A stretch of DNA of 64,000 nt from Meghimatium bilineatum (Eukaryota; Mollusca; Gastropoda; Stylommatophora; Philomycidae), in NCBI GenBank assembly GCA_034231615.1, contig CM067317.1:15956394-16020393 (forward strand). The letters are read 5' to 3'. The notes under the pieces were generated by a model. That model had not been told where the DNA came from, searched no databases, and saw only the letters and a list, made by a program, of their open reading frames with translations. Within the stretch, counting starts at the first letter, position 1; every line of letters begins with the position of its first letter. This document shows, one piece after another, positions 483-49,840 of the stretch. The position numbers and the translations under genes were made by a program.

Positions 483-1213
483 TTTACAGAAAGATTTTAA
501 TATCATATACAGAGAAAAAACAACATTTTGATGCCCCTCACGCCTTGATGCCCAGTGCGACCGCACACCCCCCCCCCCCCCCCCCCCAGTACACCACTGC
601 ATCTATGGCTATCATTATTATCACTGAGTAGATCTTAATAACATGCAAGAAGGGAGATGGTTGGTTGCTGATCCAGCGGTCCATGGACTCATGCCCTTTG
701 ACCTAATGCCATTAAATGCTGCGAAGAATGGATTTTCTGGAAACCCTGAGACAGAATAACTGTCACACCTACAGGACGGTAGGTTTCAACTTATGCACTA
801 CTCCGAGCCACTGTAGCCAAGATAGAGTTCACTTTGTTCATTCCCCGCCACCAATTTGACTACTGGTTACGCCAAACTTCTCTATTGCTCCAGGCATGCA
901 AACAGGACATTTATTATTTAAAAACGCAACTATATTAAAATAAATATGTGATTGTGTAGTGTTCTTACCGACATAGCAAGAACATAAAAGCACAGCCAAA
1001 AAAATGGCGGAAAAGCATCATGGTGCTTGCCGATAAAACTGAACATTTTTAAAACGTGAAACCTGAACATAGTGATCATCATATGTCTTTCATACTTGGT
1101 TATATAACTGTATCAATGGCTAATAAAACGTTTAGACAGTGGATGAAGTTGAAAGTAATAGTACATTAAAATGGATAATGAAAATACACATACCTCATGT
1201 TCAAATGAAAGTT
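483..1213. repeat. Interspersed repeat family B, copy 1
   Basis: This segment recurs almost unchanged at about 10590-11392, with scattered substitutions and small indels. Both copies hold a long C-tract (about 571-588 here), a block around 'GTTGCTGATCCAGCGGTCC', and a conserved 3' part. A shorter, older relative of the 'TTGATCCAGTGGTACC' block lies near 62740. The copies end at about the same base and then enter unrelated sequence, as expected of an interspersed non-autonomous element. No coding potential is visible and I cannot assign a superfamily. Confidence 0.7.
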
Positions 1214-1478: not shown

Positions 1479-1827
1479 AGTCGTATGTATGCTTTGTTTT
1501 GGAGGAGTGTGCTGTTGAATTTCCAGTGTAGGGAGCGTTTAGGAGGTTGGATGGTGTGTGTAGTGTGTATTTTTTAGATGACTGCTTTGTGGTCTGTGTA
1601 GCGTAGGGTGTCTGGTAGGTGCTTGGTGTGACTAATGTTGTGTGTTTGTGGGACTTATATTCTGTCCAGTCGTGACTTGGATGTGAATTGTTTGTGTGTG
1701 GTCTCAGTTCCTTGTCGGTGCAAAGATCTGTAGGCGTCTACTAAGTTGTGTGTCTCTAATATGTCTTGTATGGCTTCCAAGGTTTTTTTCTTGGGGAGTA
1801 GCCTGTGGTGTGTTCCTTTCGAGTCTT

Positions 1828-2021
1828 TGTCGGTCAGTGTACAGTTAAAATCTCCGGCTAGTATTATATATTTTGTCCTATGTAAAAGTTTGTCAGTCAG
1901 TGTACAGTTAAAATCTCCGGCTAGTATTATATATTTTGTCCTATGTAAAAGTTTGTCAGTCAGTGTACAGTTAAAATCTCCGGCTAGTATTATATATTTT
2001 GTCGTATGTAAAAGTTTGTCA
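1828..2021. repeat. 63-bp minisatellite (3 units) in LINE ORF2
   Basis: Three near-identical 63-bp units start with 'GTCAGTGTACAG' at 1833, 1896 and 1959. 63 bp is 21 codons, so expansion kept the frame. On the minus strand the unit encodes the endonuclease 'AGDFNCTLTD' block. Confidence 0.95.
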
Positions 2022-2078
2022 GTAGGCTGTCTAGATTCTTGTAGAATAAAGGTTGTTGTCTGCGGTCAGGTGGGGCGT

Positions 2079-2246
2079 GTATATTTATAATTGCGTATGT
2101 CTGTGTGTTGTCGCTAACTTGTATATTTATAATTGCGTATGTCTGTGTGTTGTCGCTAACTTGTATATTTATAATTGCGTATGTCTGTGTGTTGTCGCTA
2201 ACTTGTATATTTATAATTGCGTATGTCTGTGTGTTGTCGCTAACTT
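2079..2246. repeat. 42-bp minisatellite (4 units) in LINE ORF2
   Basis: Four copies of a 42-bp unit begin with 'GTATATTTATAATTGCG' at 2079, 2121, 2163 and 2205. 42 bp is 14 codons and on the minus strand each adds the same 14 residues ('VSDNTQTYAIINIQ') inside the endonuclease domain without shifting frame. Confidence 0.95.
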
Positions 2247-2604
2247 GTAGTATCGCTATTCTGCCGTCGCTGTCTCTGTCTTCTTTTTGTATCGTCCATC
2301 TGTCTGATGTTTGTAAAATGGCTACTCCTGAGCCGCTTTGTTGGGTGCTGAGGCTGAAACATGTGTGTCTGAGTCCTAGTTTTGTCGTGAGTTGTGCTGC
2401 GTGTTCTTTTGTATGTATGTTTGTTTCTTGTATGAGTATGAAATCTGGTTTGTGTGTATGTATGAGTTTTGGGACCTCGCTTAGTTTAGTGCGGAGGCCC
2501 CTAATGTTCAGTGTAATAATTATGATTTCTGACATTTTTGTACACAGGTTTTGTTTTAAACGAAAAATTTACATTGTTATAGAGATAATTAAAAATGAAA
2601 CATA

Positions 2605-3675
2605 TTAAAATAGAAATACTTGCGTATTGGTACGTCGTTTTAAAGTGGTGGCATCTGTGAGCTTGTCTGTGGTGCGCGTCAGTGGTATTATGATCGGTCT
2701 TGTCAGATGTGGGAATTTTTCTGTTGTTGCCTCTGTTGCTGTTGGTTTGTTGTTTGTTTGTGTGTTGTTCCGTATTCTGTCTGGTGTGTCTTGTGTTGTT
2801 TCCTCTGGTCTGCTTTCTGGGCTGGCCGGAGCTGAGAGTCGGCGGCGTCTCTTGTGTGAGACTGTCTGGAACTCTTCCACGTCTTTTACGATTTGTTTTT
2901 CCTCCTGTCTTGTGTTGGAGGTAGGGGATGCGAAAGAAGCTTTTGCTACTGCAACGTAGGAGATCTTTTTGGGGATCTCCTCTGTCCTTTTTGCCGCTGG
3001 TCTGGTTGCCTGTGGTGCCGTCATTTTCTCTCTGTTCAGGCACCTATTTGCCCAGTGGGTGTCTGCTCCGCAATGAGGGCAGATTGTCCTCCTCCCCGGG
3101 ATGGTGACCAGGATCTTGTATGACCGATCCTTCGCCCCTTGTAGGTTGATTTGTAGGTAGTGTGGGATGTCTGTTGTGGGGTGGCACATGACACCCCACT
3201 TTTCTGGTGACTGCGGGAACCTGTATAGTTCCGCCTCTGGGTCGCCGAAAGCATCCACTGCCAACTTTTTAACGGCATCTAGCCGGAAGTTCACTGGCAC
3301 CCAGTGGAGTGTGATCTTCTCACGCTCTTTATCTGCGTGTTCTATGGTGAACGTTAAATCTGAATTTTTAATGTTTATCGTTTTGCCATGTAGACGTTCA
3401 TAATGACGTTCGTGATAATCTTTAGTTAGACTAAGAAAGTACTTGGTCGGGTTCTCATACCTGTAGAGCATCTTTATGCTCTGTACCGGTATGCCTCCCA
3501 GTCCCGTGAGGGCGCTGGTCACAAACCCTACAGAGGCCTTTGCCGCCGCCTGGGCTCCGGAAATCTGGATTATCAGGGTTCCAGCCGGGTGGTCTTTGCC
3601 TCCCTCTAGGACATCCTCGCTGTAGGTGAAACATTTGGTTACGTTATCCATATTGAAAACTTTGAAATAGAACAT
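2605..3675 (-). CDS. Tx1-like LINE ORF1 (gag-like, CCHC knuckle)
   Basis: An uninterrupted 356-codon frame with ATG starts at 3675 and nine codons later. Roughly residues 15-130 are a conserved N-terminal region ('EDVLEGGKDH', 'LTGLGGIPVQSIKMLYRYE'). A CCHC zinc knuckle, 'CPHCGADTHWANRC', follows, then a basic low-complexity tail. It would bind the element RNA and form the RNP with ORF2. ORF2 starts 70 bp downstream. The same ORF1 type recurs, always broken, at 11.5, 13.0/17.5, 30 and 31.5 kb, which makes this copy the best reference for the family in this window. It is open, but its ORF2 is dead. Confidence 0.85.
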   Translation of the reverse strand: MFYFKVFNMDNVTKCFTYSEDVLEGGKDHPAGTLIIQISGAQAAAKASVGFVTSALTGLGGIPVQSIKMLYRYENPTKYFLSLTKDYHERHYERLHGKTINIKNSDLTFTIEHADKEREKITLHWVPVNFRLDAVKKLAVDAFGDPEAELYRFPQSPEKWGVMCHPTTDIPHYLQINLQGAKDRSYKILVTIPGRRTICPHCGADTHWANRCLNREKMTAPQATRPAAKRTEEIPKKISYVAVAKASFASPTSNTRQEEKQIVKDVEEFQTVSHKRRRRLSAPASPESRPEETTQDTPDRIRNNTQTNNKPTATEATTEKFPHLTRPIIIPLTRTTDKLTDATTLKRRTNTQVFLF

Positions 3676-4059: not shown

Positions 4060-4139
4060 TGACTGCTCTGTGTAGCGTAGGGTGTTTGGTAGGTGCTTGG
4101 TGTGACTAATGTGTGTTTGTGGGGCGTATATTCTGTCAA
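4060..4139 (-). pseudogene. Fragment of Tx1-like LINE endonuclease
   Basis: About 80 bp closely match 1597-1672 of the neighbouring LINE (shared 'GTGTAGCGTAGGGTGT' and 'TAGGTGCTTGGTGTGACTAA'). It ends abruptly where the duplicated 1.92-kb unit starts, so that unit probably broke this LINE fragment. Confidence 0.7.
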
Positions 4140-4392
4140 GTTACATACTAAAAAAGAAAACTCGGTTGGTTGTCGTGGTGTGACATCTGAATCGGGTAAG
4201 GGGCAACTGGTGAAAATAAGGGAATATACTAATATTATCATATTAATGCGTATCTTATATAATCAATAAGTTTTATGTTAATAAACCCAACTAACACAAG
4301 TTAACTGACACACCTGATTATACACATAACACATTTAGTACAACATAGAGACAAACTATAATTACAACGAAGATAATAAAAATCATATTTAT

Positions 4393-11392: not shown

Positions 11393-11450
11393 TTACTCAA
11401 ACAATATCCGCTGTTTTCGCCAGATAGAAACACCAATGTGTAGAGAAATT

Positions 11451-11749
11451 AACTGGCACCCAGTGGGGCGTGATCTTTACCCGTTCCTTATCCGCGTGTT
11501 CTATGGTTAGTGTCAGTTCTGGATTCTTCATATTGATAGTTTATCCATGCAACCGCTCGTAGTGACGTTCTGATATTCTTTATTGAGGCTGAAATAGTAC
11601 TTCGTAGGGTTTTCATACCTGTATGCTCTGTACAGGTATGCCGCCGTCTGGCCTCAGGAAATTTGAATAATCAGAGTTCTGGCCGGGTGGTATTTGCCTC
11701 CCTCCAGGATATCGTCATTATATGTCAGCGATTTAGTAACACTTTCCAT
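11451..11749 (-). pseudogene. Tx1-like LINE ORF1, 5' fragment
   Basis: Starting at the ATG at 11749, the minus strand encodes a broken version of the ORF1 N-terminus seen at 2605-3675. The 'LEGGK' region, the 'YRYENPTKYYFSL' block and the region before 'HWVPVN' are present, with deletions that remove the 'LTGLGG' part and shift the frame. Confidence 0.75.
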
Positions 11750-13397: not shown

Positions 13398-16300
13398 CCC
13401 CATCGAGGCCAGAACCTTGAAGTGGTGATGGGGCTTAGTTCAGCCATCAGAGGCTGGAAACTAAGACTGGTCGGGCACTCCCACTCGAGCAGGACCATAG
13501 TCCGGCCCAAGTAAGCAGAGTGCTGAAGACGGAGGCAACCAGCCAAAAGGCGCACAGATAATCAGGTTGCCACGCATAAAACACAATGGAAACATGTCTG
13601 CATCTAATAAACGTTATGGTGCCTGCCCTGTGGCGGACGTTCAGGCAGGGACGGTGCCGGGCCCTATACCTCGAAAGGGCCCAACCTCAGTTACTGGAAG
13701 TCCTTCTCAATTGCCCCGAGGAGCCAGGAGGCAAGGGGATAGAGCTACTGGCCAAACAAACAAACGACCAATTAAAATAATGCACTGGAATGCTGAGGGT
13801 GTCAACAGTAAAAGAGATGGATACAGCAAAAAATTGGAACTTGAAAATGTCCTCAGTGAAGAACAAGTTAATATATGCTGTATCCAAGAAACACACCTCA
13901 GCAGCGACATAGCCTTCAAAATCAGAGGCTACCAGTGCTACCGATCTGACCGAAAAGACAGGCGAAAGGGTGGAATTCTGACACTAGTTAAAAACAATAT
14001 CAGCGCATGTCAGCTGGAAGTATACATGGACGGGGCAGAATACCAGATGCTCCACCTAAAAACAGACAGTGCAGAATTCCATCTCCTGAACTACTACTGC
14101 CCAAATGATAAACCATTGGCACTAGACACAATTCCAGATAAAGAGAGACTTATGGTGTGTGGTGACTTCAACAGCCACTCTCAGAGCTGGGGCTACGATC
14201 ATATCGACAAGAGAGGTGAGGAACTTGAGAGCTGGCAGGATGAAAATAATCTCATTCTTATTAACCAGCCAGCTGACTCACCAACCTTCTACTCGAGAGC
14301 ATGGCACACCACCTCTACACCAGACCTGGCATTCTACTCACCAGGCCTGGAATGGAACATCACACGTGTCGTTGGAAAGCAGCTTGGGGGTAGTGACCAC
14401 AGACCAGTATTTCTGGAAATTCACAATGAATATACCAAGGACAGCAGCACGCTCACTAGGTGGAACTATAAGAGGGCAGACTGGAAAATGTACCAGCATT
14501 TAACCAGTGTTCTAGCTAAGGACATGAACTTGGACAAAGACATCAATAGAGCAGTGAGTGAATTTAATAGATGTATACTACATGCTGCTAGTAAAACCAT
14601 ACCCAGGGGGGCACGCAAAAACTACAAACCCTACTGGAATGATGAACTGGAAAAGCTGCAAAATGAGATGGAAACATCTAGAAAGCAGGCTGAGAACAGA
14701 CCTAGCCAAGAACATCACAACAAATATCAGCAAACAAAGGCTAAATTTCAAAGAGCCAAGTTACAAGCCAGACGGAACAGCTGGAAAGAAAAAACAGAGT
14801 CGCTGAACCTAGAAAGAGATACTAGGAAATTATGGAAACTTGTAAAACAACTAAATGATGAAGGTACAGGGAGAAATACCAGGATCACACTTTATAAAGA
14901 TAAAAACATTTTAACAGGTAAACATGCAGCTGATTACTTTGCAGATTCCTTTGCAGAAGACAATAACGTCAAAGTCAGCCCAGACAAACAACAGGAGGTT
15001 CGAGTGAACCAGCAAAACATTGGACAAGACGAACCTATACCTGAAGTCATGGAGGCACCAATCACAATGAGAGAACTGGAGCATGCAATATCCAAATTGA
15101 AAATGAAAAAGTCCCCTGGAGCTGATGGAGTGTCCAATGAAATTAGAAACCTGGGAATTGCAGCAAGAGCAAAGCTGCTGCAAATCTTTAACACAAGCTG
15201 GTCCACAGGTAATGTACCACAGGCATGGAGAGAAGCAATAATGATACCTCTCCTCAAATCAGGAAAAGATGGCAACACAGTCTCCAACTACAGGCCCATC
15301 AGCCTCACAAGCTGTCTATGCAAAACAATGGAACGCATTATCAATCTTAGGATGCAGTGGTACCTTGAAAGTGAAACCCTTCTGGTATCACAGCAAGCAG
15401 GTTTCAGACAGTGCTACTCTACTGAAGATCAGGCAACCTACCTCTCCCAAGAGATTGAGGATGCCTTCCAAGAAAAGAAACTGGTACTAGCAGCATGGAT
15501 AGACCTCAGGAAAGCATTTGATAAGGTCTGGAAAGAAGGGCTCCTAAAGAAATTGCGAAATTGCAGGGTTAGCTCAAGAATGTACAAATGGGTAAAAGCA
15601 TACCTGCATAATAGAAGAGCCAGGGTACAATTAGATGGTCGCAAAAGCAAGAAAGTCCTACTGCGTCATGGAGTCCCCCAGGGAGGAGTCCTGTTACCCA
15701 CACTTTTCTTGGTTTACATCAATGACCTAGTTGCTGAACTACCACACGGGATCAAAGTGGCAATGTATGCTGACGACCTGGTGATCTGGTGCACGGAAGA
15801 ACATGCGACAGTGGCCACTAAACAAATACAAAGAGCTATCGATGCCGTAACATTATGGGCAAATAGATGGTGTGTCAGCATTAACACAGATAAGTGCAGC
15901 ACTACACTCTTTACCCTCTCACCAAAACAAAAAGCCGGTCATATCAAGATAGACGGAGAGCTCTTGAAAGAAGACAAACAACCAACATACCTCGGAGTTA
16001 CTTTTGATGATAAGCTGACATGGAAGCAGCACATAAACAAAGCAACAACAAAAGCCAGGAGGAAGTTAGCTATCCTGAGAAAACTAAGTGGAACCACATG
16101 GGGAGCCAGTGGGAATATACTCAGTAAAGTTTACCAGCAAGGCATAAGACCACACCTGGAATATGGTTCAGCTGCGTGGTGTCCTGCATCAAACACCACA
16201 TTACAAGATCTAGATAAAGTGCAAAACCAGGCACTTAGAATAATGTTGGGAGCAATGAAATCAACACCCATAGCAGAGATGCAGAAAATGGGAAGAATGC

Positions 16301-17447
16301 AAACACTTGGCGAACGCAGAGACACAAAAGTACTAATTCAAGCGGAAAAGTTTCAGTGTATGCCAAGTCATCCAATGAAGGAAAGATTCCAAAACCTAGC
16401 AATGGGGCGACTGAAAAGAAGCAGCTTTATCCATCAAGCTAAACGACTCCGTAGACAACTTACAGACCTACCTGAAGTTGACAGCCCCTTAAGGTCTGTA
16501 CCAGAACAAACCCCATGGAGTGAAAGGCATGGAATGCCAATATACATTCAGACCCATGTGAAAGGAATACTAAGCGAGGACGAACAGAACAGTGTGCAGC
16601 GGAGGACAGCCACCCTCAGTTTCCTGGACGAGGAATATCCACAAGATATATGGGTCAGAGTATACACAGATGGGTCAGCACAGAATGCTGTGAGGAATGG
16701 AGGTGCAGGTGTATATATAGAATATCCACACAAGCCTAGAGATACAATCAGAACACCGACAGGAAAATTCTGCAATAATTATGATGCAGAAATCCAGGCA
16801 ATTACTGTGGCAGCTAAAAAACTGCTGAACTCCAACTCTGACCTACAGCCTGTGGTATTCCTGACAGATGCAAGGTCAGTGCTTCAAGCTCTCCAGTCTG
16901 GAAAACTAACAGACTTGAAAAAACTACTTAGCGAATTGTCTTACCAGTATAGGGTAACCATGCAGTGGATACCCTCTCACTGTGGAATACCAGGAAATGA
17001 AAAAGCAGACCAACTGGCTAAGGAAGGTGCTGCCGAAGATCAACCAGATATACCAATCACCTACCATCAGAAAAAACAGATGATCAAGTCAATAAGAAAG
17101 CCACAAACACCAACACAAGATGACTATCACATTATGAACAGTTCAGAACAAGTTATAATTCTACGTCTCAGAACAGGACACAACCGACTCCGCAGTCACA
17201 TGTATACAAAGTTCAAGATTGGCAACACGGCCATGTGTACATGTGGACAGGCAGTACAGAGTGCCAAACATATACTTCAAGAGTGTTCTGAGCATGAAAC
17301 ACTGAGGCAGACATATTGGCCAGAGGAAACAACACTGGAATCAAAGCTCTATGGGACACTGTATGAACTACAAAAAACAGTGAGTTTTATTAAGGAGACA
17401 GAATTGCAGATATAGACATGTTTCAAGTGAACGAAAGAAGAAGAAGA
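13398..17447 (+). mobile_element. Full-length RNase-H LINE with 12-bp TSD
   Basis: The element is flanked by the 12-bp direct repeat 'ATTTAATTTGGT' at 13386-13397 and 17448-17459. It has about 195 bp of 5' UTR, one long ORF and a GAA-repeat tail. No ORF1 is present. The intact frame and perfect TSD indicate a recent insertion. It landed in an older Tx1-like LINE ORF1 on the opposite strand. The domain order endonuclease, reverse transcriptase, RNase H fits the I/jockey superfamily. Confidence 0.95.
13594..17415 (+). CDS. LINE polyprotein: APE endonuclease, RT, RNase H
   Basis: The first in-frame ATG is at 13594, giving about 1273 codons. The order is APE endonuclease ('IKIMHWNAEGVNSK', 'CCIQETHL', 'VCGDFNSHS', 'GGSDHRPVF'), reverse transcriptase ('KKSPGADGV', 'NYRPISLTSCLCKTMER', 'IDLRKAFDKVW', 'GVPQGGVLLP', catalytic 'MYADDLVIW'), RNase H ('VYTDGSAQ', 'DAEIQAI', 'TDARSVL', 'WIPSHCGIPGNEKADQLAKEG') and a C-terminal CCHC-like knuckle ('CTCGQAVQSAKHILQEC'). 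It nicks target DNA and primes cDNA synthesis there. All catalytic motifs that I can check are present and no stop interrupts it, so the copy may be active. Degenerate relatives lie at 1.2, 58.4 and 59.7 kb. Confidence 0.95.
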   Translation: MSASNKRYGACPVADVQAGTVPGPIPRKGPTSVTGSPSQLPRGARRQGDRATGQTNKRPIKIMHWNAEGVNSKRDGYSKKLELENVLSEEQVNICCIQETHLSSDIAFKIRGYQCYRSDRKDRRKGGILTLVKNNISACQLEVYMDGAEYQMLHLKTDSAEFHLLNYYCPNDKPLALDTIPDKERLMVCGDFNSHSQSWGYDHIDKRGEELESWQDENNLILINQPADSPTFYSRAWHTTSTPDLAFYSPGLEWNITRVVGKQLGGSDHRPVFLEIHNEYTKDSSTLTRWNYKRADWKMYQHLTSVLAKDMNLDKDINRAVSEFNRCILHAASKTIPRGARKNYKPYWNDELEKLQNEMETSRKQAENRPSQEHHNKYQQTKAKFQRAKLQARRNSWKEKTESLNLERDTRKLWKLVKQLNDEGTGRNTRITLYKDKNILTGKHAADYFADSFAEDNNVKVSPDKQQEVRVNQQNIGQDEPIPEVMEAPITMRELEHAISKLKMKKSPGADGVSNEIRNLGIAARAKLLQIFNTSWSTGNVPQAWREAIMIPLLKSGKDGNTVSNYRPISLTSCLCKTMERIINLRMQWYLESETLLVSQQAGFRQCYSTEDQATYLSQEIEDAFQEKKLVLAAWIDLRKAFDKVWKEGLLKKLRNCRVSSRMYKWVKAYLHNRRARVQLDGRKSKKVLLRHGVPQGGVLLPTLFLVYINDLVAELPHGIKVAMYADDLVIWCTEEHATVATKQIQRAIDAVTLWANRWCVSINTDKCSTTLFTLSPKQKAGHIKIDGELLKEDKQPTYLGVTFDDKLTWKQHINKATTKARRKLAILRKLSGTTWGASGNILSKVYQQGIRPHLEYGSAAWCPASNTTLQDLDKVQNQALRIMLGAMKSTPIAEMQKMGRMQTLGERRDTKVLIQAEKFQCMPSHPMKERFQNLAMGRLKRSSFIHQAKRLRRQLTDLPEVDSPLRSVPEQTPWSERHGMPIYIQTHVKGILSEDEQNSVQRRTATLSFLDEEYPQDIWVRVYTDGSAQNAVRNGGAGVYIEYPHKPRDTIRTPTGKFCNNYDAEIQAITVAAKKLLNSNSDLQPVVFLTDARSVLQALQSGKLTDLKKLLSELSYQYRVTMQWIPSHCGIPGNEKADQLAKEGAAEDQPDIPITYHQKKQMIKSIRKPQTPTQDDYHIMNSSEQVIILRLRTGHNRLRSHMYTKFKIGNTAMCTCGQAVQSAKHILQECSEHETLRQTYWPEETTLESKLYGTLYELQKTVSFIKETELQI

Positions 17448-17459
17448 ATTTAATTTGGT

Positions 17460-18069
17460 GGTTGTGATTTCTTCAGGCATCTGTTCGCCAGTGTGTGTCC
17501 TCCCCGCAGTGGGGGCAGACTGTCCTCCATTATAGGGTGATGAGGATTTTATATTGACGTGTTTTTGTGCATGTGAGGTTGATAGTTAGATAGTGGGGAA
17601 TGTTTGTTGTGGGGTGACACATCACCCCCCCCCCATTTTTCTGGTGACTGTGGGAAACGGCACTGGGTCACCGAAGGCGTCCACTGCCATTTTTGCACGG
17701 CTTCTAGCCTGAAATTTACAGGTACCCAGTGGAGCGTGATCTTTTACAGTTCCTTATCTGCGTGTTATATTGTTAGTGTCAGTTCCGGGTTTTTCAGGTT
17801 GATTGTTTTCCCACGTAACCGTTCATAATGCCGTTCATGGTGTTCTTCAGTGAAGCCAAAGTGGTATTTTGTAGGGTTTTCATACCTGTAGAGCATCTTT
17901 ATGCTCTGTACAGGTATGCCTCCCAGTCCCGTGAGGGCGCTGGTAACGAATCCTACGGAGGCCTTGCCGCAGCCTGGGTTCCGGAAATAATCAGGGTCAG
18001 GCCGGGTGGTCTTTGCCTCCCTCGCAGGATATCCTCGTTATAAGACAGGGATTTAGTTACACTTTCCAT
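17460..18069 (-). pseudogene. Tx1-like LINE ORF1, 5' part (split by a LINE insertion)
   Basis: From the ATG at 18069 the minus strand follows the ORF1 of 2605-3675: 'LTGLGGIPVQSIKMLYRYE', 'ERLRGKTINLKNPELTLT' and the first half of the zinc knuckle, 'CPHCGEDTHW'. Single-base losses, an internal stop and a C-tract at 17628-17636 break the frame. It continues at 13385-13045 beyond the inserted LINE. Confidence 0.82.
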
Positions 18070-28804: not shown

Positions 28805-29903
28805 AATTTGAGGTGCGTTGTTGTTCATTTGTTTTGTTAGTCGTATTGCGTCCTCTAAAATCCTTTCTTCCTTTACTCGTCTGTGTATCCTGGTTGCCAG
28901 TGTTTGAGTTCTTTCTTGTATTGTGCTCTTTAGAAGTTCCCAGTGGCTGTGTATGTTTTCAGTTGGTATGTTTTCTGTGTATGATGAGATTATGTCATAT
29001 GATCTACATACACTTTGTTTTGTAACAATGTTGTTGAATTTTCAGTGAGGAGATCGTTTGAGTGCTATATTTGTGTGTGTAGTGTTAAGTGTTGCCATCA
29101 CTGCTTTGTGATCTGTGAATTTGAGTGTTTAGTGCTTGATTTGTAGTGTGTGATGACTTTAATTTGCGTAAATTGTCAAGACGTGATGCTCTGTGGTATG
29201 CTGTGTTTGAGTTTGTTATTTCTGTGCCCTGTGGGTGTATATGTCTATATACATCGATCAGATTATGCGTGTAAATTATTGTTTGTAGGGTGTCTAGCTG
29301 ATTTGAGTGCTCTCTATGTGTACCTTTCAACTGTACCTTGGCATTACTGCCTACTACATCTATCTCATCTAGAACACAATTAAAATCTCCAGCTAAGATT
29401 ATATTGTGTCCTCTATAAAAATGTATGAGTGTGGTTTCCAACTGCTCGTAAAAAAGTGGTTGATACCTGTAGGTGGCTGGTAAGTGTATGTTAACTATTG
29501 TGTAAGCATGTGTATTGTTTTTAACTTGAACTATTACCATCTTACCCTCACTATCTCTGTTCTCGTGGACTATTTCCCATCTGTCCGATGTCTGTAAGAT
29601 GGATACTCCTGAACCAACATTCTGGACACTAAGACTAAAACATGAATGTTTCAAGCCTAAAAGTGTGGTTGTCTGTTGTGCGTGCGTATATTTGCCTCCT
29701 GTACTAGAATGAAATCTGGTTTGTATTTGTGTATGAGATATTATTTGGTATATTTTTGTGCGCATGTCACGTGTATTAATACTATTTTTTTCTTCATTAA
29801 TTTTTGGTTTCTGATAAAAAACAAAAATAACAAGCGAGATACAAGTAAATATATATGCTTGGAAATTAAATATAATATAATATTTATATGATATTCGAAA
29901 ATG
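28805..29903 (-). pseudogene. Tx1-like LINE ORF2, endonuclease and linker
   Basis: The minus strand carries 'GSGVSILQTSDRWEI', 'YTIVNIHLPATYRYQPLFY', 'ILAGDFNCVLDEIDVVG' and a 'DHKAVMATLN' block, then the linker before the reverse transcriptase, with frame changes. It matches the LINE ORF2 at 1500-2535 but without the minisatellites. It stops near 28805 before any RT. Confidence 0.8.
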
Positions 29904-29904
29904 T

Positions 29905-30545
29905 TCAATTTGTGTTGTGGTCATCCTCGGTATTGTCTAAGACAATTATAAGATTTGGTGAGGCATCCGATGGTGTCTTGGTTTTATCAGCTGGGCTGAA
30001 TGTTTTGATGATTCTGTCGTGTTTTGTTGGAGTGATATTGCTTTGGTCTTTATCTTTCTGGTATGCCTGTGAGGGCTTTGGATATTCTGTGTCGTCTTGT
30101 AGGGCTAGTGTTAATGTTATTGGACTTGTAATGTCAGAAGAGAGTCTTCGTCTCTTTCTCTTAACCTCGGTGAAGTCATTTGCCTCCGTTGTAGCTTCAA
30201 AATGTGGTTTAGGTGCTGGTGGTGTTTCTTTCTCTTTGTTTGAAGGACATTTATTCATCCAGTGCTCTGGACTACTGCAGTGGGGGCATTCTGTTCGTCG
30301 ACCTGCTACAGTGATCATCACTTTCACGGTGATGTCTTTGTCTCCCTTAATACGCAGTTCAGCATAGTGGGACAGTGGGGTTTTTTGGCCGACAGACCAT
30401 GACCCACTTGTCTGGCGTTGTTTCAATTTGGTTAATGCTAGCTTCTGGATCCCCAGATAGCTGTGCAGCAATTTTGTGGGCCGACTCTATTTTAAGCGTG
30501 GGTGGCATCCAATGTATTGTTGCCCGTGTTCTTTCCTTCGCCAAA
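29905..30545 (-). pseudogene. Tx1-like LINE ORF1, 3' two-thirds
   Basis: Two overlapping frames hold 'RTRATIHWMPPTLKIESAHK', 'CPHCSSPEHWMNKC' (the CCHC knuckle) and a basic, Ser/Thr-rich tail. One frame change joins them near 30410. ORF2 follows directly downstream on the same strand. The N-terminal part is missing. Confidence 0.8.
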
Positions 30546-39340: not shown

Positions 39341-39621
39341 TACGTTGTAACCATTACCACCAGCACCGCTACAATTGCACAATTTGAAATGATAAATATT
39401 ATTTATGATCGGCTACATATTGTGGCCATGACGCTGATCGTCCTGTTTTGCGCTGAAAGTCCTGATATAGAAAAACTGAATTTCTAAATTAGAATAAAAC
39501 AAAGATGAAAAAAAACAGAATGGGGAGTATGTGTGTTGTATGCTTAATCAACGTTTTTAAAATTAAAATACATATTATCAGATGTGAAAATATGCTAACC
39601 ATTTGTACCTTAAAAATTATT
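39338..39621 (-). repeat. 3' flank of U2 copy 1 (tandem unit)
   Basis: Nearly the same sequence is at 40602-40885 behind U2 copy 2, which shows that the U2 genes form a head-to-tail array with a unit of about 1.26 kb (minus the insertions). Confidence 0.85.
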
Positions 39622-40017
39622 GGGCCATTCCCGGTAGAACTGCAATACCGGATCAACCCGTGACGAGAGCGAAGCAAGCCCCGGGCATCTTATCTAGTTC
39701 CAAAAATCAGTTTATATCGTAGTCACCCGATGGGCCACGTATCAGATATTAAGCTGATAAGAACAGATACTACACTTTTTTTTAAGGAATCTTTATTTGC
39801 ATCAATGAAATATTTACAAAACCAATAGACATGTTAATTGTGTAGTATGCACTGTGTTATGAGATGGTTTAACAACATTCATGGAAATTTGTGATGGGAG
39901 TCTAGTGATAAATGTAGGATGTAAAAATTAGTCAAACATTATATTATTTTTCCTTTCGTCCTCACACTCTTACATTCAAGCTACACCTTGATCTTAGCCA
40001 AAAGGTCGAGAAGCTAT
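39622..40017 (-). ncRNA. RNU2: U2 snRNA gene, copy 1, split by an insertion
   Basis: On the minus strand 40017-39987 gives the U2 5' end ('TTCTCGACCTTTTGGCTAAG', the stem-loop I region) and 39775-39622 gives the remainder: 'GTGTAGTATCTGTTCTTATC' (branch-site pairing region), the 'GATTTTTGG' Sm-type site, and stem-loop IV with 'GGTATTGCAGT'. Without the insertion the gene is about 185 nt, the normal U2 size. A 205-bp A-tailed insertion (39776-39980) splits it between nucleotides 37 and 38, within the branch-site recognition region, with the 6-bp duplication GTGTAG. This copy cannot give normal U2. One base is extra in the 5' part. Confidence 0.93.
39776..39980 (-). mobile_element. 205-bp A-tailed retro-insertion in U2 copy 1
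   Basis: On the minus strand it starts 'CTTGAATGTAAGAG' and ends 'AATAAAGATTCCTT' plus eight A. 'GTGTAG' flanks it on both sides (39981-39986; 39770-39775). The AATAAA and A-tail suggest a LINE-type 3' end, heavily 5'-truncated. Which LINE family it belongs to is not visible. Confidence 0.85.
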
Positions 40018-40601
40018 AAAGATTTGTTTTCGAAAGCGTCCATGCCATTCAATTCATTTTACATAAAACTATGAAAGAAAACATTAAAATTTAATAATGC
40101 ACAGTCGCTCTTCGGTATATAATTATTGACAATAATGCAAGAATAATTTTGAATCTATGTATTTCTAGAACACAGATAATCAGTCCTCTGTATTTTTGCA
40201 CAACAATAATTCGTGTTTCTAAATTGTAATATAATCATACAATAGCCTCGACCTCAGGAAAAAAAACATGTTTATATACCCCTTCTCTGCAGGGGATATC
40301 ACTGTTAAGAACAATAATGTGTAAGTTGCCTCTCTTTGACCACTAACGAACATCTCAAGTACATTTCAACACTAATAAAAGTAAGAACAGTAATTAAACG
40401 TACTAACAATAATAAACGTGCTAACAATAATACAGGTATAGGTAGGTCCTATGGCAGCAACCTGCCGTCGGGGATGAAAATAACTCTTTATGTATCAAGC
40501 AGCAGTTACCATTAGGGGGGGGGGGAGTTTCCTTCCTCGTTGTGTTTACTTTCAGGCGAGCAATCACACCACGGATTTTTGTTTATCATGATGTGGTTTT
40601 C
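40018..40601. other. Spacer between U2 copies, with U2 promoter region
   Basis: It should hold the 5' control elements of U2 copy 1 (just above 40017). I cannot point to a PSE with confidence. A G-tract is at about 40517. Confidence 0.4.
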
Positions 40602-40885
40602 AACCTAGTACGTTGTAGCCCCCAGCACCGCTACAATTGCACAATTTGAAATGATAAATATTATTTATGATCGGCTACATATCGTGGCCATGATGCTGAA
40701 CGTCCTGTCTTGCGCTGAAAGTACTGATATAGAACTGAATTTCTAAATTAGAATAAAACAAAGATGGAACAAATATAATGGGGAGTATGTGTGTTGTATG
40801 CTTAAACAGCGTTTTTAAAATTAAAATACATAGGCCTATTATCAGATGTGAAAATATGCTAACCATTTGTACATTAAAAATTATT
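40602..40885 (-). repeat. 3' flank of U2 copy 2 (tandem unit)
   Basis: Matches 39338-39621 with few differences. Confidence 0.85.
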
Positions 40886-41037
40886 GGGCCATTCCCGGAA
40901 GAACTGCAATACCGGGTCAACCCGTGACGAGAGCTAGCAAGCCCCGGGCATGTCATCTAGTTCCAAAAATCAATTTAATATCGTAGTGACCCAATTGGCC
41001 ACCTATCAGATATTAAACTGATAAGAACAGATACTAC
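40886..41037 (-). ncRNA. RNU2: U2 snRNA gene, copy 2, 3' part only
   Basis: The minus strand from 41037 reads 'GTAGTATCTGTTCTTATCAG' and the following TTTAATATCTGATA, both as in canonical U2, then the Sm-type site and stem-loop IV. Seven A's and a LINE 3' end (minus strand, 41038 onward) precede it in place of the first 35 or so nucleotides. The break is at the same point as in copy 1. The missing 5' part is not seen elsewhere in the window. Confidence 0.92.
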
Positions 41038-44000
41038 TTTTTTTCCTATAATTTTTATTGAGATCATTTCGACATGTTAAAGAGGCATGATGATGGTGAT
41101 TTACTTTGTGGAGTGAAGTGAAAAGGATGACAGGTGGACGTTACAGTGAGGTGAGACATAGTTATTTTAAATTAAAAAAAACACCTCAGGCATTCCATAT
41201 GGTGTGAAAGATGTAGACAATTTTTAAAGGCATGTTATCAAATCAGGACATATATGATAAAAAAACCAGTTGTAATGGCATGTTATAAAACATGGTGGTA
41301 AGACATGGTTATTTTAAAAACACATCAGGCATTCCATGTGGTTGACATATACATTTTTAAAAGGCATATTATAAATTCAGGACATGCATAATAAAAAAAA
41401 CGATTTTAATGGCAGTTTATTTTGTTAAAAAAAAGGCAGAGTATGAGTCACAAATTGAGTGTCTGTAAATTTGGTGGAATGTCTGTGTGTTGTAAAACCT
41501 TCCGTCATAGGCCTATGTCGCTGCGATTCTGCAGTCCCATACCAGTAGTCTTAAAACCGCTAGTATGGTCAGCATTTTACTGTGTATGTCTGGGGTTGTC
41601 GTGGGTATTGTGTTTAGCATTATTGCTTTGTAGATGTCTGTTGTTTTCCCTGTGTGTGTTTCTATGATTTATTTGAGTGTGGTTGTCTGTGTGATTGTCC
41701 TACATGTAGAGAATAGGTGGTCCTGTTTCTGGTTGGTTTGTGTTGCATAGTCTACAGAGTTGTTTGTTTCTGGGAAGTGTTTGTCGTGCTTTTGTAGGGG
41801 TCATGCTGTAGATGAGTCTGTATGTGACCTCTCTGGTTGTGATGTTGGTATTGTGTAAGTTGGTGAAAATGTGTTTGTGTAGTCTGTTATGAAATGGTTG
41901 TAGCCTCTCTTGATTCTGGTGAGTAGTGATGGGGGCTTGTAGTTTCACTAGGTGTTTGTATATGATGTTTGTTGGTTTGTGTAGGAGGTTCTCGTGTCCT
42001 TTTATTGCTTGTATGCATGATTTGTAGAAGGTGGGGAGTGTACCAAAGTGGTATGGGACAGAGTTTTTAAGTGGTGTCAGTTTGGTAAGTCTGAGTCCCA
42101 TATAGAAATGTGCTAGAGTGTGATGTTCTGGGTGTTTTAGGATGTGGCCTATGTGGTTGATTCTGATTGCTTGTATTTTTGTTGTTATGTCTTGGAGGGC
42201 TATGCCACACTGTTTCTTCTCTTGAATTAGGGTTTTGTGTTGTATGCTGTGTATTGTGCTTTTGTAAACAAATGTTCTGATGAGTTTGTTGATGTCTATG
42301 ATTGTTTTGGAGGGTCAAAGATTGTGGCTGTGTAAATGAGTTTTGGGATGATGCATATGTTGACAATTGTGCTTCTGCCGAAGATTGTTGAGGTTTTGAA
42401 TGTGTATAGTCTTAGTGTTTTTGTTATCTGCAAAGTTACATTTTGCCATGTTTATCTGTGCGTTGTGTTTGGATTGGATGGAAGTGTTATGCCGTAGAGT
42501 TTCATGTTGTCTGTGTGTGTTATGTTGAAGGGGAAATCTGTTTTGTATTTCCATCTGCCTATTCCTATTACTGTTGAATTTTGCCCCACTATTTCTCCCG
42601 TATTCTGTGAAAGTGTGTAGGATGTTCTCTATCGACTTTACATTTGAGGGAAAGAAAACCGTGTCGTCTGCATAGGCAAGCAACTTTCGCTCTCCTTTCC
42701 CCTGCATGAAAGTTCCATTAATTGATGTTTCTTGCCTGATTTTTTCTAGAAGGGGTTCTAGAGTGAGGACGTAGAGCAGAGGTGATAGAGGTGATAGATT
42801 TTATCCTTGTCTGACTGATCTTGTAATGTTGAAAGTGTTTGTTAGTGTGTGGTTTACGAGTACTTGGCTTTCAGGCAGTGAGTACAATATTTGAACCCAC
42901 TGTCTGAAATTTTTGCCTATGTTGCAGTGTTCTAATGTTTTGTGGAGGAATTTGTGTGAAATTCTGTCAAAGGCTTTTTCCTGGTCTAATGACAGGATCG
43001 AGGATTGAGTCTTTCCGGTGTGTGTAGGTGATTATGTCTCTGATGAAATGTGTGTGTTGGTGTATGTTTCTGCCTTGTATGCTGCATTGTTGGTCCTCGT
43101 GTACTAATGTTGTCATAAAGGGTTTTAATTTGTTGGTCAGTGTTTTCGTCAGTATTTTGTAGTCCACGTTCAGTAATGATATGGGTCGATAGTTTTTCAG
43201 TTGCGACTTGATTGAGGTGTCTTTGAGGATTAGGGTGATGTAGGAAAGGCTGAGGCTGGTAGGTAAGGTCTTCTTTGAAGGAGGCTGCATACTTGGAGTA
43301 ATAGGGTCCTAGTAGGGGAGGAAATATTTGTAGAATTCTGCAGTGAGTCCGTCTGGTCCAGGTGTTTTGTCTTTTTGCATTGTGTTTACTGCTTTTGTGA
43401 TGTTGTTCAGTGTGAGGTCTTCTTCCAGTATGTTTTTTTCTGTGTCTGAGAGCTTCTTTGTGTATTCCATGAAGGTGTCTTGTATGGTTGTTTGTGTGTT
43501 TTCTTCTGTGTAGAGAGTTTTGTAATAGTCTTCAAAGGCTTGGGCTATGTCTTTTGTCTGTTTCCTTGTACGTCTGTTATGCTTATTATCTGTCTGCGGC
43601 GGTGTATGCTCTGTTCTATGCCTATGTATTGTCCGCTTGGTGTCTCTTGTATGGAGTTCAATTTGGTTCACAGCATTGTTCCCTGGTACATGTGTTGTCT
43701 GTGTTGCTCTAATTCGTCGCGTAGTCTGTGGATGTTGGCTGTGTTATTTTCTGTCTGTCTTGCTAATGTGATGGCGCTTACTAGTATGTGTTCGTGTTTT
43801 CTTCTGTTTTTGTTGATTTGGGTTGCGATCTGTTGTGTCTTGTATAGTATGGTGTTTTTTTAGTAGGTCCCAGTGTGACTGTATGTTTGTTGTTGGTATG
43901 TTTTTTGTGTATGTGAGGATGAGTTGGGTTATGTATTTTGTGTATGCTTTGTTCTGGAGATGTGTGCTGTTGAATTTCCAGTGTGGGGAGCGTTTGGGGG

Positions 44001-44040: not shown

Positions 44041-44045
44041 TCTGA

Positions 44046-46486
44046 ATTGTCAAAAAACACACCCAGATATTTCATTGTGCTGTTTCTTTCTAAACTTTTC
44101 CCGGACAACGAAACATGTGGCACAGGTGTCTTTACCATGTTCACGGCAAACCAAGTGACGAATGCCTTAGAAGGATTTACCACTGCTCCGGTATCTCTAC
44201 ACCAATTCGTCACTCTGTCCAGCTCGTCCTGTAGTTCCACCACACACTTCTCAATTTCTGCACAGCCTATAGGGGCCTATACCAGGATGTTATTGGCATA
44301 CGACATCGTTCTGCCAGTACCTGTGATTTGAGTGCCAGTGATCTGTACTGTGAATACATTGAAAATCACAAGAGATAGAGGCGATCTATTGCGACCGCAC
44401 ATGTCTCTATGCTCAAATCGCACCCCTCAAAAACATCCTGCGCAAATATGGCTACATTCTGCCATGTCTTCTTTCCTGGACGATACCCTCCTAACAACGT
44501 TTTTAAACATTTCCCTCAAGATGAAACGATACCTCCCAAGCCACAATTTTTGCCAAAAGCTTGCCTATCGTAATCTGCATTGTTATTATTCTGTAGCCTT
44601 GTATCCTGATGTGATCTTTCCCAGGTTTGGGTAGTGGAACTAAATAGCTGTGCAACAACTTATATTTCACATCTGCCGTCATTTGAGACGATGTGTCCAG
44701 GATATTGATTTTTGATTAGAAACTGGCTTCACAGCATGCGGGACATTCCCATAAGTGCTCCGCCCTCCGCTCCAGCAGCCATCCCAGTGTATGTAGAATC
44801 ATAGTTCCGGTCAGGTGTTGATTGTGTGATCTTCGGGACTTTCCAAAAAATTTACTTTTCCTCCCCTCACCTCTGAATACTCCCATTTCTAACATTCTCT
44901 GTATGTGTACGTTCTCAACCTCATTGACATCATCTGCATCTTGAAATGAATTTATTACTGCCTTTATTAAATCTGCTTTATCTCTTCTCAGCAATGTGCC
45001 GTCTATCGCCGCATTGCCTGCCAGTAAGTCGGCTCTCTCGTTTCCTCTGACCCCAGCATGACCAGGGCAGAATATCCATGTAATGCTTTGGACAACTGAG
45101 TTGTTCAATAAGTCCCACCATTCTTTTCTTAGCATGAACTTTTCTATCTTGCGCAACATGCTTTGAGAGTCTGTGAGTATTACCGCGTGTATTGATGTAT
45201 CAGTTATCAACCAATTAAGAGCTGCTGTAACTCACTCTATCTCCATCCTCATGCTCGATGTGACAGTAGAATATGCTGAAGATTTCTCAACCAACTTCAC
45301 GCCATTTCTGTAGGCAACAAAACCCCAACGGCTTTTATTTGTGTTTCTGCTAACAGATCCATCTGTGTATATAATTATGTCTTGTGGTTTCTTCTTCTTC
45401 AGCGTTCATTCTCAAACTCCTGCCGGATCTCTATTGCAGTAGGACAATGGCCCTATTATATTTCCAGCAGGATATAGTCCAGAGAATGGAAATGCGTTGT
45501 GTCGCCGTTTTATTTGCGCCAATGGCCCGACACATCCGTCTTCGGCGGGTTGTGGTTTCGAGTGTAGTTGGGCGAGTTCTTGCACTGCATCCTGAGCCCT
45601 GACTGCCGTCCATTTTCGACACGCTTTATCTAGTTGTATTATTACTTTAGTCAGTGATTTCTCTCAGTGTCTACCTCCACTGCCCTTTCCTATTTCTTCC
45701 AATTCACATAGTATTCGCAGTGTGTCTTCAGCCTCTGCCATCCATGATCTGCCACGCTTAATACGTTTTCCGTTTGACTCATCTAGACGATGGTGTAATG
45801 GGTGGTGGTTGTATTCTGTCACTTTAAGGTACGACTTAACTTGTGCTACTTGATGTCGCACTCTAATGCTAGGGAGATCAAGCAGAAATCTCATAGCAGA
45901 GATGGGTGTATCTCTAGTACACCCCAGTACCGCTCTCATTGCCTCATTTTGAACTTTTTCCAATCTATCGACTTGTGTCTGTGACAAAGTTAGTAGGCCG
46001 AGGCCATAATCTATTACAGATAGCACCACCACTTGCAGGAGCAGAAAAAGTACACATTGCTGCATGTCGAAGGTCGCCATAACCTTGATAACACTGATCC
46101 CTCTTCTAGCCTTCTGAATCATATTTGTGACGTGTTTGTTGAATGAGAGACTTCTATCAAAGATTATCCCAAGATATTTAAGGTCCTGTTCTCTTTCAAT
46201 GAATGAGCCCATGCAACTAACAGCTGGCAGTGTGTCATTAACCAGATTATTATTTAAGGAGTACCAGACGACCTTTGCTTTCGAGGGATTGATCACAACG
46301 TTGTATGTTCTGCACCATATCGACAATTGATCTAGTCCATTTTGTACACTGTCAGCGATATCTCTTCTGTTCCTGCCCATGTTGTATAGTAGGATATCGC
46401 CAGCGTATGTTAGAACTCTACAATTGCTGGGAGTTTGCAATTGAGCAATTCTCAATGTATATTGATGTATATTGAGAATTCTCAAT
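44046..46486 (-). pseudogene. Second LINE (RT and RNase H), broken
   Basis: The minus strand has the RT catalytic block as 'LTYAGDILLY' (second Asp of the usual YADD changed to Gly), 'EREQDLKYLGIIFDRSL', 'VDRLEKVQNEAMRAVLG', then RNase H ('IIYTDGSVS', 'ILTDSQSML', 'ITWIFCPGHAGVRGNERADL') and a C-terminal 'HLWECPACC'. 44046-44243 holds a second RT piece ('NPSKAFVTW', 'TMKYLGVFFD'), implying another partial copy. A SINE at 45392-45549 splits the RNase H. I/jockey-type by domain order. Confidence 0.82.
45392..45549 (-). mobile_element. LINE-derived SINE in the RNase H domain, 10-bp TSD
   Basis: 'TTGTGGTTTC' flanks it at 45382-45391 and 45550-45559. Removing it joins 'ELAQLHS' to 'IIYTDGSVS' of the host LINE. 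It is the 3' half of the SINE family with a GAAGAA tail on the minus strand. Confidence 0.88.
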
Positions 46487-47531
46487 TCCAGGATATTGAT
46501 AATGTTTTACTTGTAGTTTCTCTCCATTATGTTTATGTTTAGCTCTTGTTCTTCTGTATCTTTGCTGATTATCATTGTTTTTTTATATTTCAAAAGGTAA
46601 TAAAAGATAGGGAAGATAAAGGTGGTAAGTAAGGAGGGGAAAGTACAGAAAGATTAAGATGGTATGTAAGGAGGGGAAAGTACACCGAAAAAGTGGAAAT
46701 AGATCAGAGCTAATGCAAGTAAAATAAAATAAATGTAAAATACTTATCTGGATAGTAGTCTACAGTGAAAGAAAAACAATTTTAATGTAAATTTAAGTTA
46801 GTTTTTGTTGTAAGGATAAAAATACTGAGTAGGCACAAAGCTTGTTTAAGCATGTATAGAGTAGTTATAGATTTGATATATTCGAAGAAATCATAAGAAT
46901 TATATACGTTGGAAATCTGCATGGGACTCAGATTCGTTCATTAGGTTTAGGTTTTATGGAGGGAACTCTTCTTTATTAATAGTTATTATGGTAACTAAGA
47001 TTCATGGGTATTAGGAGTAGTGGAGGGATTATTATTATGTGGTTGAAATTTCATTCTTCAGCTTGATATTAAACTTGGGAACTGGATAAGGACTTGTAAG
47101 ATTAGGTATACCACGAGGTATCAGAATGAGATAATACATATTTTATATAGTGCTTATTGAATAGCCAATACCTAGTCTAAGAATATAAAGAGTTTATGTT
47201 TATATCTTCAATTTACTATGTTGGTTTTATGTTGCGACTGGTTATGAGTATTATTAAAATATTAAGAATCTATGGACTTATGCTATAGACTGATCTAGCT
47301 AACATGGAGACTTAGGTTTATATACTAAGCCAGTATGGCTATGAAACAGAAGAGAGATCCTGAAGGAAAATTAGGAGTAATTAAGATATTATTCTAATGG
47401 AAAAGAACCATGGTGGATGTGGGATCAGCAAATCAGATCTAGACTTTCATGTTGAAACTTTTCAGGGACCGATGATCAAGTAACAGAGGGTGGAGGCTAG
47501 AGCAGACTGTCAGTTTTGAGTTTTACAGGAG
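46487..47531. other. AT-rich stretch, nothing recognised
   Basis: No coding region. 'GGTAAGTAAGGAGGGGAAAGTACA' -like purine-rich units recur twice near 46625-46685. Confidence 0.45.
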
Positions 47532-48620
47532 AAACCTAGCTAGAGATGTGGTTAGTTGAATTGAGATCAGAAAACCTAGCTAGAGATGTGGTTAGTTGAA
47601 TTGAGATCAGAAAACTTAGCTTGAGATGTGGTTAGTTGAATTGAGATAAGAAAACTTAGCTAGAGATGTGGTTAGTTGAATTGAGATAAGAAAACCTAGC
47701 TAGAGATGTGGTTAGTTGAACTGAGATCCGAAAACTTAGCTAAAGATGTGGTTAGTTGAATTGAGATAAGAAAACTTAGCTAGAGATGTGGTTAGTTGAA
47801 TTGAGATAAGAAAACTTAGCTTGAGATGTGGTTAGTTGAATTGAGATAAGAAAACTTAGCTAGAGATGTGGTTAGTTGAATTGAGATAAGAAAACTTAGC
47901 TAGAGATGTGGTTAGTTGAATTGAGATAAGAAAACTTAGCTTGAGATGTGGTTAGTTGAATTGAGATAAGAAAACTTAGCTAGAGATGTGGTTAGTTGAA
48001 TTGAGATAAGAAAACCTAGCTAGAGATGTGGTTAGTTGAACTGAGATCCGAAAACTTAGCTAAAGATGTGGTTAGTTGAATTGAGATAAGAAAACTTAGC
48101 TAGAGATGTGGTTAGTTGAATTGAGATAAGAAAACTTAGCTTGAGATGTGGTTAGTTGAATTGAGATAAGAAAACTTAGCTAGAGATGTGGTTAGTTGAA
48201 TTGAGATAAGAAAACTTAGCTAGAGATGTGGTTAGTTGAATTGAGATAAGAAAACTTAGCTTGAGATGTGGTTAGTTGAATTGAGATAAGAAAACTTAGC
48301 TAGAGATGTGGTTAGTTGAATTGAGATAAGAAAACTTAGCTTGAGATGTGGTTAGTTGAATTGAGATAAGAAAACTTAGCTAGAGATGTGGTTAGTTGAA
48401 TTGAGATAAGAAAACTTAGCTAGAGATGTGGTTAGTTGAATTGAGATAAGAAAACTTAGCTAGAGATGTGGTTAGTTGAATTGAGATAAAAAAACCTAGC
48501 TAGAGATGTGGTTAGTTGAATTGAGATAAGAAAACTTAGCTTGAGATGTGGTTAGTTGAATTGAGATAAGAAAACTTAGCTAGAGATGTGGTTAGTTGAA
48601 TTGAGATAAGAAAACTTAGC
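47532..48620. repeat. 40-bp satellite, about 27 units, with 320-bp order
   Basis: The unit reads 'AAAACTTAGCTAGAGATGTG' followed by GTTAGTTGAATTGAGATAAG. Variants (TTGAGATG, TAGAGATG, TAAAGATG; CTGAGATCCG) are ordered: the rare CTGAGATCCG variant occurs at 47721 and again at 48041, 320 bp or eight units apart, with neighbours in the same order. The array grew at least once by block duplication. Confidence 0.97.
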
Positions 48621-49840
48621 AAGAGAGAACAAAGTGAGTTTTAAATCAGATTGGAAAGGAGAAAGCAAGCAAAGGGCAGCTTACTACCATGTAGAAGAAG
48701 CAGGAAAAAATAGGACATTTTCGCAGGACGTGAAAACATATGAAGATACTTGTGTTTTGCCAAGATAACAGTACGATCAACATTTGAGATGAAGCCAAGG
48801 TGATTATAAAGTATAACACTTATGACTTGGAAACACTGCAGATGTAACTCATGAGCGTGAACATAGATGACTTCTAAGACAATATCATCAGAATCTGTAC
48901 TTGAACTTGCTAATAACAGCACTACACAATCAATGTAGTTAAGACTATAATTACATAGCTATTTTGAGTGTTGTTCCATTGATGAACTTGAAATACTGTG
49001 TCGCCAATTTTCCAGTGATCAATAAACATTGATGTTGTCACCCATGAGTGACATAACTTATGAGTACATGACTTGTGATGAGTAAGTGACAAATGGGAAG
49101 GTAAACGCTGAACAAACCATCTTCACAATATTTTTATTTGTTTACATTAGCTGCAGAGTTATTAGCTGACCATGAATTGTGCTAACCACTAAACAAAGAG
49201 TAATTGTGGTGAAACAAATGTTCAATAATGGGGGTAAATATATGGCAGATGTCATTAGAAAATTTGTGCAGAAGTAGCATATTTCCCTTACCATAATGCA
49301 GTTACAAATTTGATAAATAAGTTGTCGAAAAATTTCATCAAATCTTTCTCAATTTAAAATTCATTTCATAATATTTGTAAATGATTTACATATTGCATAT
49401 CTATGGTTATAGAAAATGATCATATCAATAAATTGTTGATATTGAGTTATTGTGGAAAAATAATTACAATTTGACAAAACAGAAAAATAATTAGAAACAT
49501 GTTTTATTAAAAAAATATTGAAACACAGATTTATTTCTATAATCTGAGGTGTTCCCAATACATTTTTCTCGCATCTGATGATATGGTATTTATGAGTTAT
49601 GACCGCAGATTATCATCATCTCACACCAAAGAAGTTCATAGGTGCTCTGATCCATGTCTCAATAAATCCATCAGAGTGTGGGGGGGCTGACAGTTCCATT
49701 TCAATGCTGATTTATTACCGTAATCTCTTTTATATAAATGTGTGTGTGATGTTTCTCTTTACAGGCTGTTTCCCGGTCTTTACACTAATCTTGTGCAGTC
49801 ATTAGAGTGGATGGGGTCTCTTAATGCATTAACTATATCT
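48621..49840. other. AT-rich stretch, nothing recognised
   Basis: No gene or boundary that I can support. Confidence 0.45.

Follow-up and report, generated by a model that had tools for sequence, protein, structure and literature searches.

Two related LINE families interrupt a pair of U2 snRNA genes in Meghimatium bilineatum, one of them also inserted about 30 nucleotides into U1 and U3 genes

The window analysed here, a stretch of 64,000 nucleotides from the Meghimatium bilineatum genome (contig C20, C20:15956394-16020393; genome 1.61 Gb, 32 contigs), contains two tandem U2 small nuclear RNA (snRNA) genes on the minus strand. Both are matched by the Rfam model RF00004 (39615-39790 (-), 120.3 bits; 40879-41067 (-), 113.4 bits), in agreement with the original prediction, and each is interrupted where U2 pairs with the branch site, next to an A-tailed insert with junctions that can be read directly. 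Three LINE families, termed A, B and C, are distinguished in what follows, of which B and C are present at this locus. Its features are:

39615..39778 (-): U2 copy 1, 3' part, nt 29-193, the first three A overlapping the A-tail; 95.8% identity
39776..39980 (-): family B insert of 205 bp, a 5'-truncated 3' end with an 8-A tail; 97.1% identity over 205 bp to the copy at locus L011
39981..40017 (-): U2 copy 1, 5' part, nt 1-37; 92% identity to intact U2
40018..40878 (-): spacer between the U2 units, diverged from the spacer of the main U2 array
40879..41037 (-): U2 copy 2, 3' part, nt 34-193; 95.6% identity
41038..44042 (-): family C LINE, 5' truncated, with a 7-A tail
44043..46506 (-): debris of an RNase-H-bearing LINE, abutting the family C 5' end and lying outside the insertion

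In copy 1 the 205-bp insert, with its eight A's, is flanked on either side by GTGTAG (U2 nt 32-37), and the junction falls at U2 nt 29-32, where the A-tail merges with the AAA of nt 29-31. Copy 2 is joined through seven A's to the 3' end of the same-strand LINE and resumes directly after them at nt 34 (GTAG). This arrangement is as first described, whilst the accompanying claim that the two genes are cut at the same base holds to within a few bases but not exactly (nt 29-32 against nt 34). No U2 5' half for copy 2 was found within the window, the 5' end of the family C element (~44042) abutting instead an RNase-H-bearing LINE. The two U2 units have a repeat spacing of ~1.26 kb and are 84-95% identical to one another in blocks D2-D7 and D9; compared with the 1371-bp unit of the main U2 array they show 74.5-81% identity (matches >100 bp). 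Because they have diverged both from the array and from each other, and because 20 kb of flanking sequence on each side of the window yielded no more U2 units, these genes form an old, isolated pair.

LINE debris is abundant in the window. Related ORF1/ORF2 fragments lie at 1481-3429, 28805-30538, 11415-11567 and 17488-17854 (all (-)), with no recognisable U2 beside them; 12 bases upstream of the 1481-3429 fragment equal U2 nt 27-38 (3852-3841), a match that may be due to chance (E 0.13). LINE sequence of another type forms an open 1304-aa frame at 13501-17415 (+), encoding APE, RT and RNase H, and a tandem repeat (40-bp unit, 27 copies) occupies 47532-48626.

Intact U2 copies were looked for elsewhere in the genome, and are present: 44 of the 46 scored hits form a single array on C20 (24736645-24838811) with a 1371-bp period. 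The gaps between U2 hits of this array were fetched and contain LINEs inside U2, belonging to families A and B. Two long family A copies (L010, L012) are 99.9% identical to one another; four further copies of 2651 bp (L013-L016) have a single common 5' break and are each 99.7% identical to L010; a 205-bp 5' piece of the family occurs in L011; and a relative of 92% identity, flanked 5' by U2 nt 1-18, lies at the end of the array (L009). All six family A 3' junctions begin at U2 nt 39 (or 40, an A being common with the tail). The common 5' breaks suggest that some of these copies were multiplied by unequal exchange, so that nt 39 received an insertion at least twice. At L009, a main-array U2 (7559-7388) was also observed to be without 21 bp beside the insertion region.

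The genome was searched with the family A 3' end running into U2 as query, and 40 of 70 candidates were scored. Six span both parts, at 97-100% identity, all of them in the C20 array; four (77-79%) end before reaching U2, one (84%, query 224-311) corresponds to the point where the array family B copy meets U2, and 29 are plain U2. Within the scope of this search, which like that for family C below could miss relatives joined to U2 at other nucleotides, family A is confined to U2, at the Keno site nt 39, and is absent from the window. Two further U2 fragments were noted beside an intact U2 on C19 (L019): a decayed 3' part from nt 39 following A-rich DNA (4093-4240 (+)), and nt 1-31 joined to RNase-H LINE DNA (5511-5481 (-)); an attempt to link the RNase-H LINE to U2 through this locus led nowhere.

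Family B is represented in the array by a copy of ~5.1 kb (L011), flanked by U2 nt 1-19 at the 5' end and by nt 29-193 at the 3' end; comparison with L062 shows this copy to be truncated inside ORF1. The 205-bp insert of window copy 1 had been taken for a truncated companion of the adjacent LINE; at 97% identity to this array copy, it is instead a member of family B. When 210 bp of the window 3' end were used as query, 40 of 340 candidates were scored and the best 30, picked by similarity alone, were fetched. The sequence right after the A-tail is U1 in seven of these (L033, L034, L039, L041, L046, L056, L058; nt ~33), U2 in two (the window and array copies only), U3 small nucleolar RNA (snoRNA) in one (L032, nt 27-31, an intact U3 following ~1.2 kb further on), and the end of a U1 gene in one, L031, where by eye only the final nucleotides of that gene and its 3' flank follow. 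The remaining 19 continue into other DNA, in which searches for small nuclear RNAs gave no hit (E up to 1 for 18 of them; the gathering threshold only for L052). By BLAST, and subject to ambiguity from the A-tail, the RNA part starts at nt 32, 32, 32, 32, 34, 34 and 37 of U1, at nt 29 and 29 of U2 and at nt 27 of U3.

Several family B insertions are accordingly found at one gene position (seven U1 loci at nt ~33, two U2 loci at nt 29-32), and those in U1 can be regarded as separate because the U1 loci have only 136-158 bp in common downstream. The scored U1 and U2 genes (42 + 46) amount to ~16 kb of 1.6 Gb, giving a chance expectation of ~0.0003 of 30 family B ends. The motif GATCA directly precedes the junction in both U1 (nt 28-32) and U2 (nt 25-29); in U3, where targeting is represented by one copy only, the nearest GATCA ends at nt 22 and the junction lies at nt 27-31, so that the distance differs from that in U1 and U2.

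The clearest U1 example is L041, the only one in which both gene halves are shown: U1 nt 1-47 is followed by six unaligned bases, 2820 bp of family B (99.54%), the A-tail and U1 from nt 33, creating an exact 15-bp duplication of U1 nt 33-47. Comparison of 5' flanks covered five of the seven U1 copies, L033, L034, L039, L041 and L056; the flank is U1-like just beside the junction in L034 and is not U1 in L056, and in L033 and L039 the match stops in an AT repeat. At L046, an inverted fragment of U1 nt 1-52 (1031-1082 (+)) was observed ~250 bp from the B-bearing U1 half. The association with U1 looks to be an old one, since in L022 two older B-like pieces (74.5%, 80%) enclose a U1 fragment (nt 10-46, 86%). 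A recent period of activity is suggested by the near-identity of family B copies in U1, U2 and U3. RNA genes are not significantly more frequent as insertion sites among near-identical copies than among the others (3/5 vs 6/24, p = 0.29), in a comparison that used for L031 a secondary 76% match and not its ~96% one.

Outside RNA genes, 5 of the 13 family B copies examined (L038, L042, L043, L045, L054) are bordered by 8-14-bp duplications of unrelated sequence. As family B inserts into other DNA, and there generates unrelated duplications, its preference is strong but its target is not exclusive. Immediately upstream of the family B copy in L038, L049 and L057 is an A-tailed end of C-like sequence, a configuration to be expected of successive insertions at one site or of a template jump. 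The U1 genes themselves, for which 42 of 18340 candidates were scored, comprise an uninterrupted array of 28 on C14 (1442-bp period) and 14 dispersed genes, two of which (C13, C20) lie ~2 kb from the family B copies of L031 and L033. The 28-unit main array on C14 contains none of the U1-borne family B copies, perhaps because selection or homogenisation of the array has purged them.

Family C, to which the LINE joined to window copy 2 belongs, retains a decayed ORF2 (RT) corresponding to that of family A from about residue 245 onwards, with the APE region lost, and has a ~137-bp tandem repeat in its 3' UTR. Its occurrence in U2 is represented by one copy only: with the C 3' end running into U2 as query, and 40 of 151 candidates scored, the window copy alone spans both parts, and none of the other 39 scored C-like ends (71-84%) continues into U2 at nt 34. 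These 39 stop at query 215-269, U2 starting at 264, such that the longest includes six U2 bases. Family C could have used the family B site, one GT being lost later (AAAGTGTAG -> AAAGTAG). Copies of the window 3' ends without U2 flanks, which would speak against targeting of U2, thus exist for family B (28 of 30 outside U2, seven of these in U1); for family C the 39 other scored ends, relatives of only 71-84% identity, do not run into U2 at nt 34. Of the targeting originally proposed, the evidence supports a site-directed entry of APE-type LINEs into U2, but not a specificity of B and C for that gene.

The ORF2 of family A (L010) comprises 1128 aa with APE (PF03372), RT (PF00078) and zf-RVT (PF13966) domains, and the domain search gave no match to RNase H; APE, RT and zf-RVT were likewise found in two family B frames. 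The best PDB match of the family A ORF2 is to LINE-1 ORF2 (4e-80), with R2 at 2e-19. Aligned identities are 566/1109 between A and B, 364/604 between A and C and 261/603 between B and C. An RT tree built from A, B and C together with 68 of the 120 hits listed (71 rows) pairs A with C (0.975), then with the Bradybaena proteins P0001 and P0002, and B with P0017 (0.843). The families are of L1/Tx1 type, having an APE + RT ORF2 without RNase H and an A-tailed 3' end, a label given with no named Tx1-clade sequence among the hits and with the Xenopus proteins of the tree unnamed. Three related L1/Tx1-type families sit in U2 of this genome, at nt 39 (A), nt 34 (C) and nt 29-32 (B).

We consider it probable (roughly 80%) that the window U2 pair was broken by two families of one LINE lineage, and that the APE endonuclease of family B nicks snRNA and snoRNA genes about 30 nt in. 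The nick would be made in the bottom strand of the small nuclear or nucleolar RNA gene, and from the junctions we infer positions of ~32/33 in U1, between 28 and 32 in U2 and between 26 and 31 in U3, which would place it just 3' of GATCA in U1 and U2 and 4-8 nt past GATCA in U3. Reverse transcription would then be primed at the poly(A) tail, a target-primed process to which the A-tails, 5' truncation and duplications point. The outcome of the top-strand cut appears to be variable: a 15-bp duplication in one U1, a duplication of 6-9 bp in the window U2 and a loss of 9-12 bp in the array U2.

The A-tails of both window inserts, their common orientation on the U2 strand and their separation by a few bases could also be expected of one Keno-like, strictly U2-specific LINE and a truncated companion, and a U2-confined relative does exist in family A. 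However, the two 3' ends derive from different families, B occurs in U1, U3 and other DNA, and the other scored C-like ends do not run into U2 at nt 34; a single family behind both inserts is contradicted by these differing 3' ends and by the genome copies of B and C, leaving the original interpretation very improbable. Somewhat better placed, but still unlikely, is the proposal that B and C are ordinary, weakly selective LINEs, their snRNA cases reflecting chance or being kept since dispersed RNA-gene copies are dispensable. This would accommodate the 19 of 30 family B copies and the 39 scored C-like ends found elsewhere, some with normal duplications, but seven separate U1 insertions at one position and two U2 insertions likewise at one position are far above chance, the targets amounting to only about one hundred-thousandth of the genome.

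U6-L1 chimeras form by template jumping, and the RNA-gene halves might by analogy be cDNA joined in this way rather than target genes. The order LINE, A-tail, RNA 3' part is one that such a jump could give, and most U1 copies are without a demonstrated U1 5' half. In contrast, L041 has an upstream U1 5' half together with an exact duplication, some U1 halves continue into a 3' flank common to several loci, the interrupted U2 in the array has repeat units on either flank, and both halves of U2 are present in window copy 1. Chimeric cDNA as a general cause is rejected on the basis of L041 and the shared U1 3' flanks, and this is the least probable of the explanations considered. Under the preferred reading, of a family B endonuclease nicking near nt 30, what the element recognises can be suggested only tentatively. 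Guidance by RNA-gene architecture (the snRNA promoter complex, or polymerase paused near +30) and not by one DNA sequence is left open because the U1, U2 and U3 junctions all lie ~30 nt from the gene start, although we regard it as doubtful. Yeast Ty3 uses tRNA-gene machinery; were architecture the guide here, family B would be a LINE directed to small nuclear and nucleolar RNA genes as a class.

The closest relative at the protein level is an unnamed LINE of the land snail Bradybaena similaris (P0001; APE + RT), 57% identical to the family A ORF2 over 99% of its length. Family B, with fixed-position insertion near +30 in U1, U2 and U3, is our strongest result and was not found in print: a literature search, with subscription papers and Repbase outside its reach, returned no U1- or U3-targeting LINE. 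Fixed-target LINEs are models for endonuclease site choice and for safe gene delivery, and the presence of three related families with three U2 junctions in one genome makes it possible to compare, at the level of the proteins, how targets change in a lineage.

In the available text of the 2015 Utopia paper (PMC4640811), the snRNA-gene elements given are only Keno and Utopia (U2), Dada-U1 and Dada-U6. Keno is described there as an APE-type LINE that occupies U2 genes in frogs, fish, lancelet and hydra, and Utopia as joining U2 at nt 39 with a U2 3' flank identical to that of Keno. Likened by description, Keno resembles family A in its APE-type ORF2 and nt 39 3' flank, but differs, as so described, from family B, which joins U2 at nt 29-32 and is also found in U1 and U3, and from family C (nt 34). 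Utopia likewise shares the nt 39 3' flank with family A, and its description in Phytophthora, where several lineages occupy one U2 array, parallels the situation here (PMC4640811); it has, however, a restriction-like endonuclease, and identity with Utopia is ruled out by the APE domain found in A and B. Dada elements, as far as the available text of their descriptions goes (PMC3706591, PMC8869645), similarly constitute a single superfamily whose families occupy different small RNA genes, U1 included. Unlike family B, they are DNA transposons with a DDE transposase and 6-7-bp duplications, and whereas each Dada family is described as having its own separate target, B is a single family found in three genes.
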